Assembly (NCBI GenBank): GCA_902797315.1
Contig: CADBSM010000046.1
Coordinates: forward strand, 1-32,991
DNA from: an uncultured Pseudomonadota bacterium
Lineage (GTDB): Bacteria; Pseudomonadota; Alphaproteobacteria; RF32; CAG-239
Direction: 5' to 3'
Length of the DNA stretch: 32,991 nt
Shown: positions 16,900-32,630 of the stretch, piece after piece
Layout: each line of letters starts with the position of its first letter
Numbering within the stretch: the first letter of the stretch is position 1
Made by a program: the position numbers and the translations under genes
The notes under the pieces: model-generated
Databases searched by the model: none
What the model saw: only the letters and a program-made list of their open reading frames with translations
What the model was told of the DNA's origin: nothing

Positions 16900-17044
16900 T
16901 TTTTTTAATCTCCATTCACAGAATATTTCGCATTATTTCTATTGAAAATATATCGAATGTATTTAATTGTAAAGTAGGCACTTTTAGGAAACTATTAGGA
17001 AATTGTGTATAAAATTGAAAATATTTTTAAAGGAGGCAATGGTG

Positions 17045-17419
17045 ATGAAAAAAATAATAACCTTAGCTTTGTTTATTTTCTTGGCAGCCTGTCAAAAAAA
17101 TGTTCTTTTCCCGAGTGATAACGGAAAAACACTTTATTTAAAGCTTGGAGATATTTTCAGTATACAACTACCTGAAAATCCCTCTACAGGATATCAATGG
17201 CACTTAATTTTTAATCCTGAAAATCAAGCGATCTTATCTCAGAGAGCAGATCGTTATGCACATTCACAGACAGGACTGGTAGGTGCCTCGGGAGAACGCA
17301 ATTTTAGCTATCAAGCAACGGGAATCGGAAGAGTAGACATATATGCAACATATGCGCGACCATGGGATGAGAGCAGTTCAAGGCAACCCTCTATACAATA
17401 TACCATTGTTGTGCAATAA
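17045..17419 (+). CDS. Chagasin-like (I42) cysteine protease inhibitor lipoprotein
   Basis: The product resembles the chagasin/I42 family of cysteine-protease inhibitors. I start at ATG 17045, eight bases after AAGGAGG (17030-17036), giving 124 residues; an ATG at 17039 is too close to that site. Residues 1-16 are a lipoprotein signal, MKKIITLALFIFLAAC, with LAAC as lipobox and Cys16 lipidated. All three inhibitory loops can be seen: NPSTGYQW at 45-52, VGASGE at 79-84 and RPWD at 105-108. It ends five bases before the convergent gcrA stop and is divergent from aas. The target protease is unknown; the lipid anchor places it on the periplasmic side or at the outer membrane. Confidence 0.87.
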   Translation: MKKIITLALFIFLAACQKNVLFPSDNGKTLYLKLGDIFSIQLPENPSTGYQWHLIFNPENQAILSQRADRYAHSQTGLVGASGERNFSYQATGIGRVDIYATYARPWDESSSRQPSIQYTIVVQ

Positions 17420-17880: not shown

Positions 17881-18015
17881 TTATTTTCTCCATTATTCGG
17901 TTTCAGATTGAGGACAATTTAATTGAATATCTTTGAGAAGTCTAGAACTAATTTTAAAAATATTGTGTTTTTTCGTTTTTAAGTGTATCATCTCAAAAAA
18001 ATAAAGGAAAAATGT

Positions 18016-19245
18016 ATGATAAAATATCTTTTGATCATATTAGGTGCTTTGTTGCTATCTTTTAAGACACAAGCTGAAGATTTCGCAAAATATTTTGATG
18101 TTGATTTAGATTCTCCAGTTCCAAATCTGGAAGCTTTATCAACAGAACTTCAAAACCTAAATGAGGTTTATGAGCCTCGTTATGTTGTTAGTTGGGATAT
18201 GGGGCCCGTTTTTGATAAAATATGGCGACAAGTCATTACAACTTATGGTACATCTGAAAAATATCTTAAAGCAGCTGGTGAAGATGAATTGGTGGAAATG
18301 ATCTCAGTTTTGCCTAAGGAATTTTATCCGTATATAGGTCCTTTTTTACACACATCTTACGGTATTTCTGAAAAAATTTTGAATATGCCGGGCATTAAGG
18401 AAACAAAAAACAAATTTCCGGACCGTATTGCACCTCAATTAGAAGGTATAGAAGATTTAGAGTTCTTATCTCCTTTTTTATACATTTTATTGATGCCTGA
18501 AATGTGGCCGGAAAATTATAAATCGATTGAAAAACCACAGAAGCGTTTTGCAAAGCTTCCAAATATTGATTACAATCCAAATTTTTATCGCAATTTGCTT
18601 AAAAATCTTCCAGATGGAGGCTATGGAGGAGCAAATGCTCGTGCAGAGTGGCCTGTCAGCGATCGCCTAAGAACATTAAAAATAACAAAAACATCGCCAT
18701 TAACATCGGCTGATATTAAATCTTTTACAAATACTTTAGATGGTGTGAGACAATTTGCTACGCACGAAAATCTGGTGCGTTTAATAAAAATAGAATCTTT
18801 ACTTGACTATTATGAAATGAAAAATGGTACGGCGCTCAACATTAACACATTAAAAGATGCCGTTAATCCGTGTCAAAGGCTTGCGTTGAAAATTAAATGG
18901 GCAGGACTTGAAAATGAATTTTCAAAAGCAATCGCACAAGAAGGTTTTAACCTGAAAGATTGGTCATATACGTGTGATAAAACAATCAAAGCTTATCGTG
19001 TTATCAATGTCTCAGATGCAAAATTTGCTGCTTTAAAGCAGTACAAAAAGGGAGTCTATAATTCTGAGCTTAATAAGTTGCCTGTAAAGCATAGAGAGCG
19101 CTTTCAAGCAACCATTGCAAGCTTGCTTGAAATGTATAAAACAAATGAAAATGATTTAACTGAAGTTTTAAAAAATGAAAGCATTTTGACAGAGCAAATT
19201 AGGCCTTTCGGTTCTATTTTTGTTACTTCTCCGCTTGATTATTAA
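18016..19245 (+). CDS. Exported protein of unknown function
   Basis: I do not recognise the family. ATG 18016 is chosen because AAGGA (18004-18008) lies seven bases upstream and because the protein then begins with a clean Sec signal peptide, MIKYLLIILGALLLSFKTQA, with cleavage likely after Ala20. The 409-residue product is then about 389 residues mature, mostly helical-looking, with two Cys in the last third that could pair (PCQRL and YTCDK). A short motif recurs, TYGTSEKYLK near residue 75 and SYGISEKILN near residue 115. It is divergent from gcrA and upstream of rpoZ with its own promoter, so it is probably a single-gene unit acting in the periplasm. Confidence 0.8.
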   Translation: MIKYLLIILGALLLSFKTQAEDFAKYFDVDLDSPVPNLEALSTELQNLNEVYEPRYVVSWDMGPVFDKIWRQVITTYGTSEKYLKAAGEDELVEMISVLPKEFYPYIGPFLHTSYGISEKILNMPGIKETKNKFPDRIAPQLEGIEDLEFLSPFLYILLMPEMWPENYKSIEKPQKRFAKLPNIDYNPNFYRNLLKNLPDGGYGGANARAEWPVSDRLRTLKITKTSPLTSADIKSFTNTLDGVRQFATHENLVRLIKIESLLDYYEMKNGTALNINTLKDAVNPCQRLALKIKWAGLENEFSKAIAQEGFNLKDWSYTCDKTIKAYRVINVSDAKFAALKQYKKGVYNSELNKLPVKHRERFQATIASLLEMYKTNENDLTEVLKNESILTEQIRPFGSIFVTSPLDY

Positions 19246-29818: not shown

Positions 29819-31627
29819 ATGGTTCAGAAAAAGAAAAAAACGTCAAAAAAAGCAGTTAAAACACGAAAGAAAAAACACAAAAAATCATTGAGGCATTTTT
29901 TGTTTAAGTTTGTTTTCATTTTGGGCTTTTTTGTATCTTTTCTTGTTGGTGTTTACGTGTTGTATTGTTATTGGAGCTTGCCCGACGTTGATGTCGCTAT
30001 TTCAAAGACAAGGCAGCCATCAACAACAATTATTGCTGAAAACGGCAATGAAATTCACACATTCGGCAATAGCTTCTCTGAGGTTATTTATCTTAAAGAT
30101 TTGCCTTATTATGTACCTGCGGCAATTGTTGATGTTGAAGACAGACGATATTATTCTCACTTTGGTTTTGATGTTATAGGTTTTGTACGCGCCATGATAA
30201 CGAATGTGTTTAAAAAACGCTATGCTCAAGGGGCGTCAACCATTACGCAACAGGTGGCAAAAAATTTGTTTTTAACACCTCAAAAGAACTTAAAACGCAA
30301 AGTACAAGAGTTGTTGCTTGCTTTTTGGCTTGAAAAAAAATTCAGCAAAGAGCAAATTTTAACACTTTATCTTAATCGTGTCTATTTTGGATCGGGCGCA
30401 TATGGTATTGAGGCCGCGTCGAACAGATATTTTGGTAAAAGCTCAAGAGATTTAAGCTTAAAAGAAGCGGCAATTTTAGCGGGCATGCTTAAAGCACCGG
30501 CTCGGTATAATCCGATTTATAGCAAAAAGAATGCTTTAGAACGTGCCGAAGTTGTGCTTCAATTAATGCATCAACATGGGACAATTACGCAAACAGAATT
30601 AACGCGCGCTAAAAATGAAAACTTGCATGATACAACAAAATATAAAGTTGAAGGAGCACGCCATTTTGCTGATATGGTCTATCAAGAGGTTAACGCCTAC
30701 ATAGGAGAACGTGATGATGATATTTATGTCAGCACGACCCTTGATCAAGATTTGCAGCAAAAAGCTGAATGGATTCTAAGAGATAGTGTTCGATCCCAAA
30801 GCAAAAACAATGTGACGGAAGGCGCTCTTGTTATTTTAGATTATAGCGGCGCTATTAAAGCGTTGGTCGGTGGCGTTGATTATTCCAAGAGCCAGTTTAA
30901 CAGAGCAGAACAAGCTTTAAGACAATCCGGTTCGGCTTTTAAAACATTTGTTTATTTAACAGCGATTGAAAAAGGTTTTTCGTCCTCTGATATCATTTCA
31001 GATACGCCAATTAAAATAGGCTCCTGGAAGCCTGAAAACTATAATAAAAAATATTATGGCGATGTAACGCTTGATTTTGCCTTTTCAAATTCTTTGAATT
31101 TAGCAACCGTTCATCTGGCGCAAAAACTCAACATGAATGATATTATTCGAAATGCTCAAAGAATGGGTATTACAACAAGCTTAAAAAAATTGCCAGCCTT
31201 AGCTTTGGGTGTTAATGAGGTCAAAGTTCTTGATATGGCAGCTGCATATTTGAGCATAGCCAATGGTGGGTATGCCGCCTGGCCATATGCTATTTCTGAA
31301 GTTTATTCTAAAGATGGACACCAACTTTATGCTCGTTCCGAAGACGAGCCTATGCGCATTATTGATCAAAACACCATTGATGAGATAACAAAAATGCTTG
31401 AACATGTTGTTTCAAACGGCACAGGAAAAAATGCGAAAGTTTCAGGCTTTGTTGCTGGAAAAACGGGTACATCTCAAGATTTTAGAGACGCATGGTTTGT
31501 TGGTTTTACCAAAAAGTATGTTATTGCCATTTGGGTTGGAAATGATGATAATTCACCGATGAAAAATGTTTCGGGAGGTACTCTGCCGGCTTCCATTTTT
31601 AAAAAGATTATTTTAACGACAATGTAA
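29819..31627 (+). CDS. Class A penicillin-binding protein (PBP1A family)
   Basis: This bifunctional enzyme polymerises glycan strands and cross-links peptides in the periplasm. The 602-residue product has a strikingly basic cytoplasmic tail (residues 1-26, mostly Lys and Arg), a membrane anchor (about 28-50), a GT51 transglycosylase domain with VEDRRYYSHFGFD, GASTITQQVAKNLFL and KVQELLLAFWLEKKFSKEQI, and a transpeptidase domain with SAFK at 372-375 (catalytic Ser372), FSNSLN near 428 and KTGT at 548-551. It is shorter than E. coli PBP1a, lacking room for the extra OB-type insert. Start is ATG with GGAGG four bases upstream. It could be named mrcA or pbpC-like, but not PbpC itself. Confidence 0.93.
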   Translation: MVQKKKKTSKKAVKTRKKKHKKSLRHFLFKFVFILGFFVSFLVGVYVLYCYWSLPDVDVAISKTRQPSTTIIAENGNEIHTFGNSFSEVIYLKDLPYYVPAAIVDVEDRRYYSHFGFDVIGFVRAMITNVFKKRYAQGASTITQQVAKNLFLTPQKNLKRKVQELLLAFWLEKKFSKEQILTLYLNRVYFGSGAYGIEAASNRYFGKSSRDLSLKEAAILAGMLKAPARYNPIYSKKNALERAEVVLQLMHQHGTITQTELTRAKNENLHDTTKYKVEGARHFADMVYQEVNAYIGERDDDIYVSTTLDQDLQQKAEWILRDSVRSQSKNNVTEGALVILDYSGAIKALVGGVDYSKSQFNRAEQALRQSGSAFKTFVYLTAIEKGFSSSDIISDTPIKIGSWKPENYNKKYYGDVTLDFAFSNSLNLATVHLAQKLNMNDIIRNAQRMGITTSLKKLPALALGVNEVKVLDMAAAYLSIANGGYAAWPYAISEVYSKDGHQLYARSEDEPMRIIDQNTIDEITKMLEHVVSNGTGKNAKVSGFVAGKTGTSQDFRDAWFVGFTKKYVIAIWVGNDDNSPMKNVSGGTLPASIFKKIILTTM

Positions 31628-31643
31628 GCATAATATTTTTTAA

Positions 31644-31671
31644 TTGAAATTATTTTAAAACAATGTATACT
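31644..31671 (+). promoter_or_regulatory. Candidate promoter of the Cys-rich gene
   Basis: TTGAAA (31644-31649), a 16-base spacer and TATACT (31666-31671, preceded by TG) form the best housekeeping-type promoter in the window. Transcription would start near 31678, which excludes the in-frame ATG at 31663 as the gene start. Confidence 0.55.
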
Positions 31672-31701
31672 AAAATTAGTTCTGTATTGAGGAGATTAAA
31701 A

Positions 31702-32166
31702 ATGAAAAAAATGATACTTTTGGCGTTCATCTGTTCAAGCTTTTTAGCCGGATCTGTTTTTGCAGGGGTTACTTTTTTACCTGCTGAAGGCTCAAGTGTC
31801 GGCACAGCTGGTTCAAGTACGGGAAATGATGCCTCTCAAGGTAATGATGCCGCTCAGGAAGATGAGCAAGTAACAAATGGAAAGAAATGTGAAGCTGCTG
31901 GATATACTATACGCACTTATAAAATGTCTGAATGTAATCATATACCTCCTGGGACATCACCAGGGCTGGAAACATGTCCGTATAAAGACGGTTATTATAA
32001 ATGTGTATATAAACCTTTAAGAGGCTCCTACTATTGCGCCCAACAAGGATATCATGACTCGTGCGCTAAGTGTGGAGGTAAGAAGCATGTGTGTCCTTAT
32101 GATGAATCTTATTGCTATTGTGAACCAATCGTCCTAGAACCGCTTCCGGAAATTCCTATCGACTAA
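31702..32166 (+). CDS. Secreted protein with two Cys-rich modules
   Basis: ATG 31702 lies seven bases after GAGGAG (31689-31694) and opens a Sec signal peptide, MKKMILLAFICSSFLAGSVFA, cut probably after Ala21. The 154-residue product then has a Gly/Ser/Asn/Asp/Gln-rich linker (about 31-57) and ten Cys in two modules. Module A runs Cys63-Cys101 (Cys at 63, 78, 92, 101) and module B Cys112-Cys140 (112, 121, 124, 131, 138, 140). Both begin CxxxGY and end CPY, six residues, C, so they look duplicated. The C-terminus is acidic and Pro-rich. The pattern suggests a disulfide-bonded extracytoplasmic protein. I know no family. It follows the PBP gene but has its own promoter. Confidence 0.8.
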   Translation: MKKMILLAFICSSFLAGSVFAGVTFLPAEGSSVGTAGSSTGNDASQGNDAAQEDEQVTNGKKCEAAGYTIRTYKMSECNHIPPGTSPGLETCPYKDGYYKCVYKPLRGSYYCAQQGYHDSCAKCGGKKHVCPYDESYCYCEPIVLEPLPEIPID

Positions 32167-32189: not shown

Positions 32190-32630
32190 TTACTCACGGT
32201 GATAAGGGTGTCCGCTTAGTATTGTCTGAATGCGATAGATTTGTTCGCTTAAAACAGCGCGAATAAGCATATGTGGCATAGTTAATTTTCCAAAAGAGAG
32301 CAGCAAGTCTGCTCTTTTTCTGACTCTATCCAAATGTCCATCAGCCCCGCCGATTAAAAAACAAATTTCGGAAATACCTTCATTCTGCCAGTTTTTCACT
32401 TTTGAGGCAAGGTCAATGCTTTTCATGTTTTCACCGCGCTCATCAAGCACAATCACTTTGGCATTCGGCGCAATATTTTGCAGCAAAAAATCTGCCTCTT
32501 TTTCTTGTGTTGAGTTGTCGTGTTCTTTGATGATTAAGTTCCACGAAAGACGTTTTTGATATTGGTCAATCAGAAGTTGTTCGGGCGAGCCTTTTTTGCA
32601 TTTGCCTATGGCTAAAATATATATTTTCAT
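32190..32630 (-). CDS. rlmH: 23S rRNA (pseudouridine(1915)-N3)-methyltransferase RlmH
   Basis: RlmH is a SPOUT methyltransferase that modifies pseudouridine 1915 in helix 69 of 23S rRNA within the ribosome. The 146-residue product has the typical ends: MKIYILAIGKCKKGSPEQ at the N-terminus and LTMPHMLIRAVLSEQIYRIQ...GHPYHRE at the C-terminus. The SAM-binding knot includes VIVLDERGENMKS and FLIGGADGH. Its ATG (32630-32628) overlaps the TGA of the upstream peptidase gene (ATGA), so the two are translationally coupled. Confidence 0.96.
   Translation of the reverse strand: MKIYILAIGKCKKGSPEQLLIDQYQKRLSWNLIIKEHDNSTQEKEADFLLQNIAPNAKVIVLDERGENMKSIDLASKVKNWQNEGISEICFLIGGADGHLDRVRKRADLLLSFGKLTMPHMLIRAVLSEQIYRIQTILSGHPYHRE

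Follow-up and report, generated by a model that had tools for sequence, protein, structure and literature searches.

The gene at positions 31702 to 32166 of the window (the whole stretch of DNA that was analyzed, 32,991 nucleotides) encodes a small, exported, Cys-rich protein, hereafter the window protein, whose family is apparently undescribed and is restricted to one family of gut/rumen Alphaproteobacteria. The Cys module that it carries also forms the front part of large groups of other proteins that probably sit on the cell surface, which points to a lineage-specific surface system that is seemingly unnamed so far. The window protein is proposed, with a probability of roughly two in five, to be a subunit, structural or anchoring and stapled by disulfides, of a cell-surface (adhesin) system peculiar to the lineage. 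The uncultured rumen/gut Alphaproteobacteria concerned have small genomes, mostly of 1.2-1.8 Mb, and described surface biology was not found for them; the module family provides a concrete handle on their contact with host, fibre or other microbes.

The gene and its product

The features of the gene and its surroundings are collected in Table 1. As had been predicted originally, the product is an export-type protein with ten mature Cys residues (63, 78, 92, 101, 112, 121, 124, 131, 138 and 140) in two CxxxGY...CPY-x6-C modules, preceded by a signal peptide and a flexible linker; an 11th Cys, residue 11, belongs to the signal peptide. The CxxxGY motif begins at residues 63 and 112 and CPY-x6-C at residues 92 and 131. 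When the mature protein was shuffled 200,000 times, both motifs occurred twice in no case and CPY-x6-C occurred twice in two cases; at the DNA level the CPY-x6-C pattern was found twice in the whole window with 0.03 occurrences expected. The signal peptide, MKKMILLAFICSSFLAGSVFA, is followed by GV at the predicted cleavage site, and a lipoprotein reading was discarded, the VFA/GV site offering no lipobox Cys. The good promoter that had also been claimed did not hold up, since the TTGAAA-16-TATACT pattern is present and scores 10/12, yet such sites are about as frequent in shuffled sequence (five found, shuffle mean 3.2, sd 2.3).

Table 1. Positions of the gene, its parts and its neighbors in the window.
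Feature	Position	Strand	Basis or remark
Bifunctional penicillin-binding protein (Transgly + Transpeptidase), upstream neighbor	29819..31627	+	Kept beside the gene in G005, G007, G008 and G009
Sigma-70-like promoter match, TTGAAA-16-TATACT	31644..31671	+	Such sites not above shuffles in number
AGGAG ribosome-binding site	31690..31694	+	Sequence
CDS, secreted Cys-rich protein (window protein), 154 aa + TAA	31702..32166	+	ORF, syntenic orthologues, family-wide profile match
Predicted signal peptide, residues 1-21, SPI-type cleavage VFA/GV, without lipobox	31702..31764	+	Sequence; orthologues align at the cleavage region
GVTFLP, conserved VxF[LI] strand	31765..31782	+	Orthologue alignment
Gly/Ser/Asp/Gln-rich linker, residues 28-62	31783..31887	+	Exceeds most orthologues in length
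Module 1, CEAAGY...C...CPYKDGYYKC, 4 Cys	31888..32004	+	Alignment; module profile 9.8 bits
Module 2, CAQQGYHDSCAKCGGKKHVCPYDESYCYC, 6 Cys	32035..32121	+	Module profile 25.5 bits, no bias correction, above all shuffles
C-terminal tail, short, acidic, Pro-rich, EPIVLEPLPEIPID	32122..32163	+	Sequence
RlmH (SPOUT methyltransferase), convergent, downstream	32190..32630	-	Synteny marker

The window gene stands alone, both of its neighbors being housekeeping genes. Two further genes for apparently exported proteins were observed elsewhere in the window, namely a peptidase inhibitor of the Chagasin family (I42, E 1.6e-21) that appears to have a lipoprotein signal and adjoins gcrA (17003-17419, + strand), and a protein of 420 aa that seems to start with a signal peptide and is not matched by Pfam (17983-19245, + strand).

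Syntenic counterparts within the genus

Searches that used the window protein itself as the query were nearly empty because the protein evolves fast: nothing was returned from genome contigs, nothing from plasmids, and a weak module match alone from 91 relatives. The family was reached by way of a paralogue from a DNA pattern search and by way of synteny, with RlmH as the marker for finding counterparts across the genomes of the genus. A secreted Cys-rich counterpart adjoins rlmH, on the side of the PBP1a gene, in G004, G005, G007, G008 and G009; G004 has two tandem copies and its contig ends before the PBP1a gene. The gene order is PBP1a gene, X, rlmH, where X has diverged in the genus mates. 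Of nine genomes of the genus in which rlmH was found, six, counting the one with the window, have the gene beside it. In G001, G002 and G010 another gene adjoins rlmH and their copies sit elsewhere.

The genus alignment retains MKK, VxFL, CxxxGY, C, CP, Y and C, and module 1 of the window protein is aligned with the invariant C, G, Y, C, C and P of the orthologues. The window ORF is a real gene. That it could be a fortuitous Cys-rich ORF without function, as the fast divergence (37% identity between the window protein and one syntenic counterpart) and the lack of any library match might be taken to mean, is hardly credible, and is already refuted by orthologues that combine synteny, invariant Cys residues and family-wide profile matches. 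An extra C-terminal module, C..LGY...CPYS..Y..C, is carried by the counterpart in G005 and by the second copy in G004, so the two-module state has parallels within the genus.

An orthologue group across the host family

A profile of the genus counterparts found matches in 82 of 126 host-family genomes at E <= 1e-3, with a best match of E <= 3.1e-16 in 48 genomes from 8 of the 16 genera (counted from the match table), and those genomes mostly hold one such protein of ~ 110 aa each. None of 397 other sampled genomes of the phylum was matched by the orthologue profile. The host-family genomes are nearly all draft MAGs and the genome of the window is itself ~ 87% complete, and absences are soft. 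The genes that flank the orthologue vary from genus to genus.

The consensus of the group is signal peptide-[GA]VxF[LI]-linker-C..xGY..T.C...CP...YY..CC...Y.Y...C......C.G.Y.C, with eight near-invariant Cys; among 22 orthologues, the V of the VxF[LI] strand is kept in 21 and the F in 20. The window protein has GVTFLP directly after VFA, as in the signal peptide plus [GA]VxF[LI] arrangement of the group, and its residues C63, G67, Y68, C78, C92, P93 and C101 align with invariant or near-invariant orthologue columns. The CC doublet of the orthologues is reduced to a single Cys in the window protein, whose tail aligns poorly with C...CxG[YL]Y.C; this stretch seems to have been replaced by, or to have diverged into, the second CPY module. 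A genus-free profile scores 24.8 bits on the window protein, whereas no more than 13.3 is reached by any of 1000 shuffles, so it is, as judged by alignment, a diverged member of the orthologue group with a rearranged tail. The duplication of modules in the original prediction is thus correct for this species and some genus mates but does not extend to most orthologues of the family, in which a single CPY module is followed by a tail with another arrangement of Cys. The spacing of the Cys residues, loss of which had been named in advance as evidence against a family, is kept, the Cys forming invariant columns in both the orthologue and the module alignments.

In genus g16 (g1-g16 and f1 are tool labels for genera and a family, not taxonomic names) the window-type domain, together with its VxF strand, forms part of repeated Cys-rich proteins of 310-545 aa. 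Since the strand is internal in these proteins and immediately precedes the Cys domain there too, it probably belongs to that domain. A terminal sorting tag, which was considered for VxFLP, is less likely given this position inside the protein.

A 4-Cys module in many secreted proteins

A search by the CPY-x6-C DNA pattern brought up a paralogue of 99 aa on contig C19 of the same genome, encoded just downstream of a CTP-synthase-like gene. Like the window protein, it carries the C-x3-G[YF]...C...CP[FY]D-x2-Y-x2-C module in tandem behind a signal peptide; unlike it, this protein and its expanded relatives have a tandem domain with nine invariant Cys and no VxF strand. The second module is without CP in many of these relatives, which form a branch separate from the window protein. 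A module profile was made from 36 modules of other loci, leaving out the window protein, and it detects both modules of the latter (Table 1; both scores are without bias correction). The better module score was reached by none of 2000 composition shuffles and none of 2000 Cys-fixed shuffles; the claim is founded on these shuffles because the bias-corrected score of the window protein is weak, at 11.6 bits.

Module loci number five in the genome of the window (C19, C37, C80, C23 and C31), and in relatives the module matches at E <= 1, the weakest of them uncertain, come to 74 in G014, 23 in G018, 16 in G015 and 13 in G022. The many paralogues that had been anticipated therefore exist for the module, in this genome and in relatives, but not for the full-length protein, of which the genome has one copy. 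A profile of the tandem form matched 70 of the 126 host-family genomes and five genomes of a class-wide sample (n = 289), of which four belong to the host family and one has 6% contamination. The records of the module family are named as MAGs of rumen Alphaproteobacteria (roe deer, reindeer, yak and RUG sets) and as MAGs labelled Lapin, read as rabbit gut. One of the latter, G014 (CANPYS01, Lapin-001 bin79), is a 1.6-Mb rabbit-gut Alphaproteobacterium in which the ~ 74 signal-peptide plus tandem-module matches (loci L102-L172) have swappable C-terminal parts, Lcl_C-like or beta-helix-like. So many copies of a clade-restricted Cys module in a genome of this size amount to a large investment.

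The tandem module consists of a 4-Cys unit repeated internally and a single additional Cys, and all nine invariant Cys are kept within the domain in 76 of 79 complete proteins. Over their whole length, the tandem-module proteins (L095-L172) have an odd Cys total in 53 of the 79 complete proteins. Together with the odd number in the domain, this suggests either a thiol that stays free or a bond to another molecule. What follows the tandem module differs: an Lcl_C-like part, a part that looks beta-helix-like to the eye, or long repeats rich in Cys. Within C-terminal classes of the rabbit-gut species, identity over the signal plus module part is 69%, and between classes it is 67%, while the C-terminal parts are just 44% identical within a class. 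Conservation of the N-terminal part across classes is what would be expected of a shared job, e.g. export, anchoring or docking.

Library, literature and structure searches

The idea of a new small extracytoplasmic family found support, and the family is named in none of the libraries searched: Pfam, NCBIfam, PHROGs and PDB sequences gave no meaningful match, Pfam has no entry for the Cys module, and viral contigs gave no match. Antibody matches in the sequence search were set aside as signal-peptide noise. A description of the family was not found in a literature search of incomplete coverage.

The tandem module was modelled by AlphaFold2 with a pLDDT of 84 and a pTM of 0.52, and the window core with moderate values (pLDDT 79, pTM 0.43) from an input alignment that forces the core onto the tandem modules. 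In both models each module is predicted to end in two adjacent strands, read as a beta-hairpin. A fold search with both models against solved structures gave no significant match. Short length, export, many Cys, repeated modules and predicted hairpins are shared with EGF-like domains, Bowman-Birk inhibitors and defensins, but there is neither a sequence match nor a significant fold match to any of these.

One alternative interpretation is that the protein is soluble and disulfide-rich, stays in the periplasm or is released, and has an activity of its own, for example in inhibiting proteases or as a binding peptide aimed at the host or at microbes, with no part in a surface complex. The protein is indeed small, exported and Cys-rich, it has no lipobox and a free C terminus, and it is encoded by a single gene with its own ribosome-binding site; moreover, the best fold match of the tandem-module model is the Bowman-Birk inhibitor 1c2a. 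That match is not significant, however (E 3.6, TM 0.27), the window family has no sequence match to Bowman-Birk-type inhibitors, and the repeated fusion and co-encoding of the domain with larger Lcl_C-type proteins (below) is a better fit to a structural domain. This interpretation is accordingly considered rather unlikely.

Probable cysteine pairing and redox enzymes

The number of mature Cys is variable among the orthologues examined (4, 8, 10, 12 or 14) though even in 23 of 23, which is consistent with intramolecular disulfides; this is supportive and not independent evidence, since the members share ancestry. DsbA-like proteins were found in all 14 host-family genomes searched, and a CSHC motif is present in three of those that were read. 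In the same 14 genomes Pfam detected neither DsbB (PF02600) nor VKOR (PF07884), the controls being positive, and a Cys-rich secretome without a recognizable DsbB or VKOR raises a testable question about the route of oxidation. It could be that the domain binds a metal such as zinc outside the cytoplasm instead of forming disulfides, a reading favored by the missing DsbB and VKOR, by a presumably anoxic habitat and by weak zinc-finger entries among the non-significant fold matches. The universal DsbA-like proteins and the even Cys numbers argue against it, as does the orthologue alignment, in which no CxxC pair or Cys/His ligand pattern is conserved, and metal binding is thought improbable.

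Linkage with Lcl_C-type proteins and proposed role

Eight loci from g16 or close to it were picked by the window-type domain and are uncut by contig ends. At five of them a gene for a signal plus module protein lies ~ 17-32 bp downstream, four of the five being Lcl_C-like, and at the other three the window-type domain continues into module and Lcl_C within one ORF. By Pfam, Lcl_C scored above the cut-off at one linked locus (L188, E = 3.4e-9) and below it at four. Similar pairs are present at g9, g10 and g11 loci, a biased sample that was picked by module matches. In G043, G092 and G126 (L187-L195) the units are themselves repeated, a gene for a window-type-domain protein followed by one for module plus an Lcl_C-like part.

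Fusion and tight co-encoding are established signs of two proteins working together, and the window protein is therefore proposed as a structural or anchoring partner of the module-bearing surface proteins. DUF1566/Lcl_C-type domains have been discussed as targets of diversity-generating retroelements. A Lcl_C domain (PF07603) ends Lcl, the Legionella collagen-like adhesin, which is extracellular and recognizes sulphated glycosaminoglycans (PMC11162425). The resemblance to Lcl lies in the Lcl_C-type C-terminal domains to which relatives of the window domain are fused or with which they are co-encoded, whereas the window protein itself has no collagen-like repeats and no PF07603 match in Pfam. 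Note also that no partner gene adjoins the window gene and that the linkage comes from another genus; because the window gene lies alone between housekeeping genes, we infer the partnership in its own genus from these relatives.

A defensin- or bacteriocin-like antimicrobial peptide would suit a small secreted Cys-rich protein in a crowded gut niche. It would sit poorly with one orthologue in many host-family genomes, with the lack of an adjacent immunity or export gene and with the presence of the same domain inside proteins of 300-545 aa, and it is judged very improbable, slightly more so than metal binding.

Under the preferred reading of a surface subunit, the window protein would be Sec-exported and non-lipidated and would comprise the VxF[LI] strand and, built around the 4-Cys module C-x3-G[YF]-x(n)-C-x(n)-C-P-[YF]-x6-C, a Cys-rich domain. 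Its Cys would most likely pair within the protein and staple two mini-domains, each ending in a predicted beta-hairpin; the odd number of Cys (nine) in the tandem module speaks against the reading, as do the missing DsbB and VKOR, the Cys lost by the window protein together with its poorly alignable tail, and the moderate quality of its model. The protein would be the stand-alone form of a domain that in relatives is co-produced or fused with secreted module plus Lcl_C proteins, the latter domain being of a presumed carbohydrate-binding type. At the cell surface it may be a subunit that supports, anchors or presents adhesin-like proteins bearing the module; the candidate partners in its own genome are the module proteins of the five contigs given above.

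A more specific version, judged less likely, is a two-part cell-surface system confined to one family of gut Alphaproteobacteria. Here a VxF/8-Cys presenting domain, with the window protein as its stand-alone form, would go with an N-terminal 4-Cys docking module on dozens of interchangeable secreted proteins (Lcl_C-type, beta-helix-type or Cys-repeat), and the odd tandem Cys would be available for covalent attachment.

The module is also present in very large proteins. In the genome of the window, the protein encoded at locus L198 (G000:C80:27000-35614) is 1317 aa long or longer, contains 129 Cys and has the module near its N terminus; it is one of several giant Cys-rich exported proteins.
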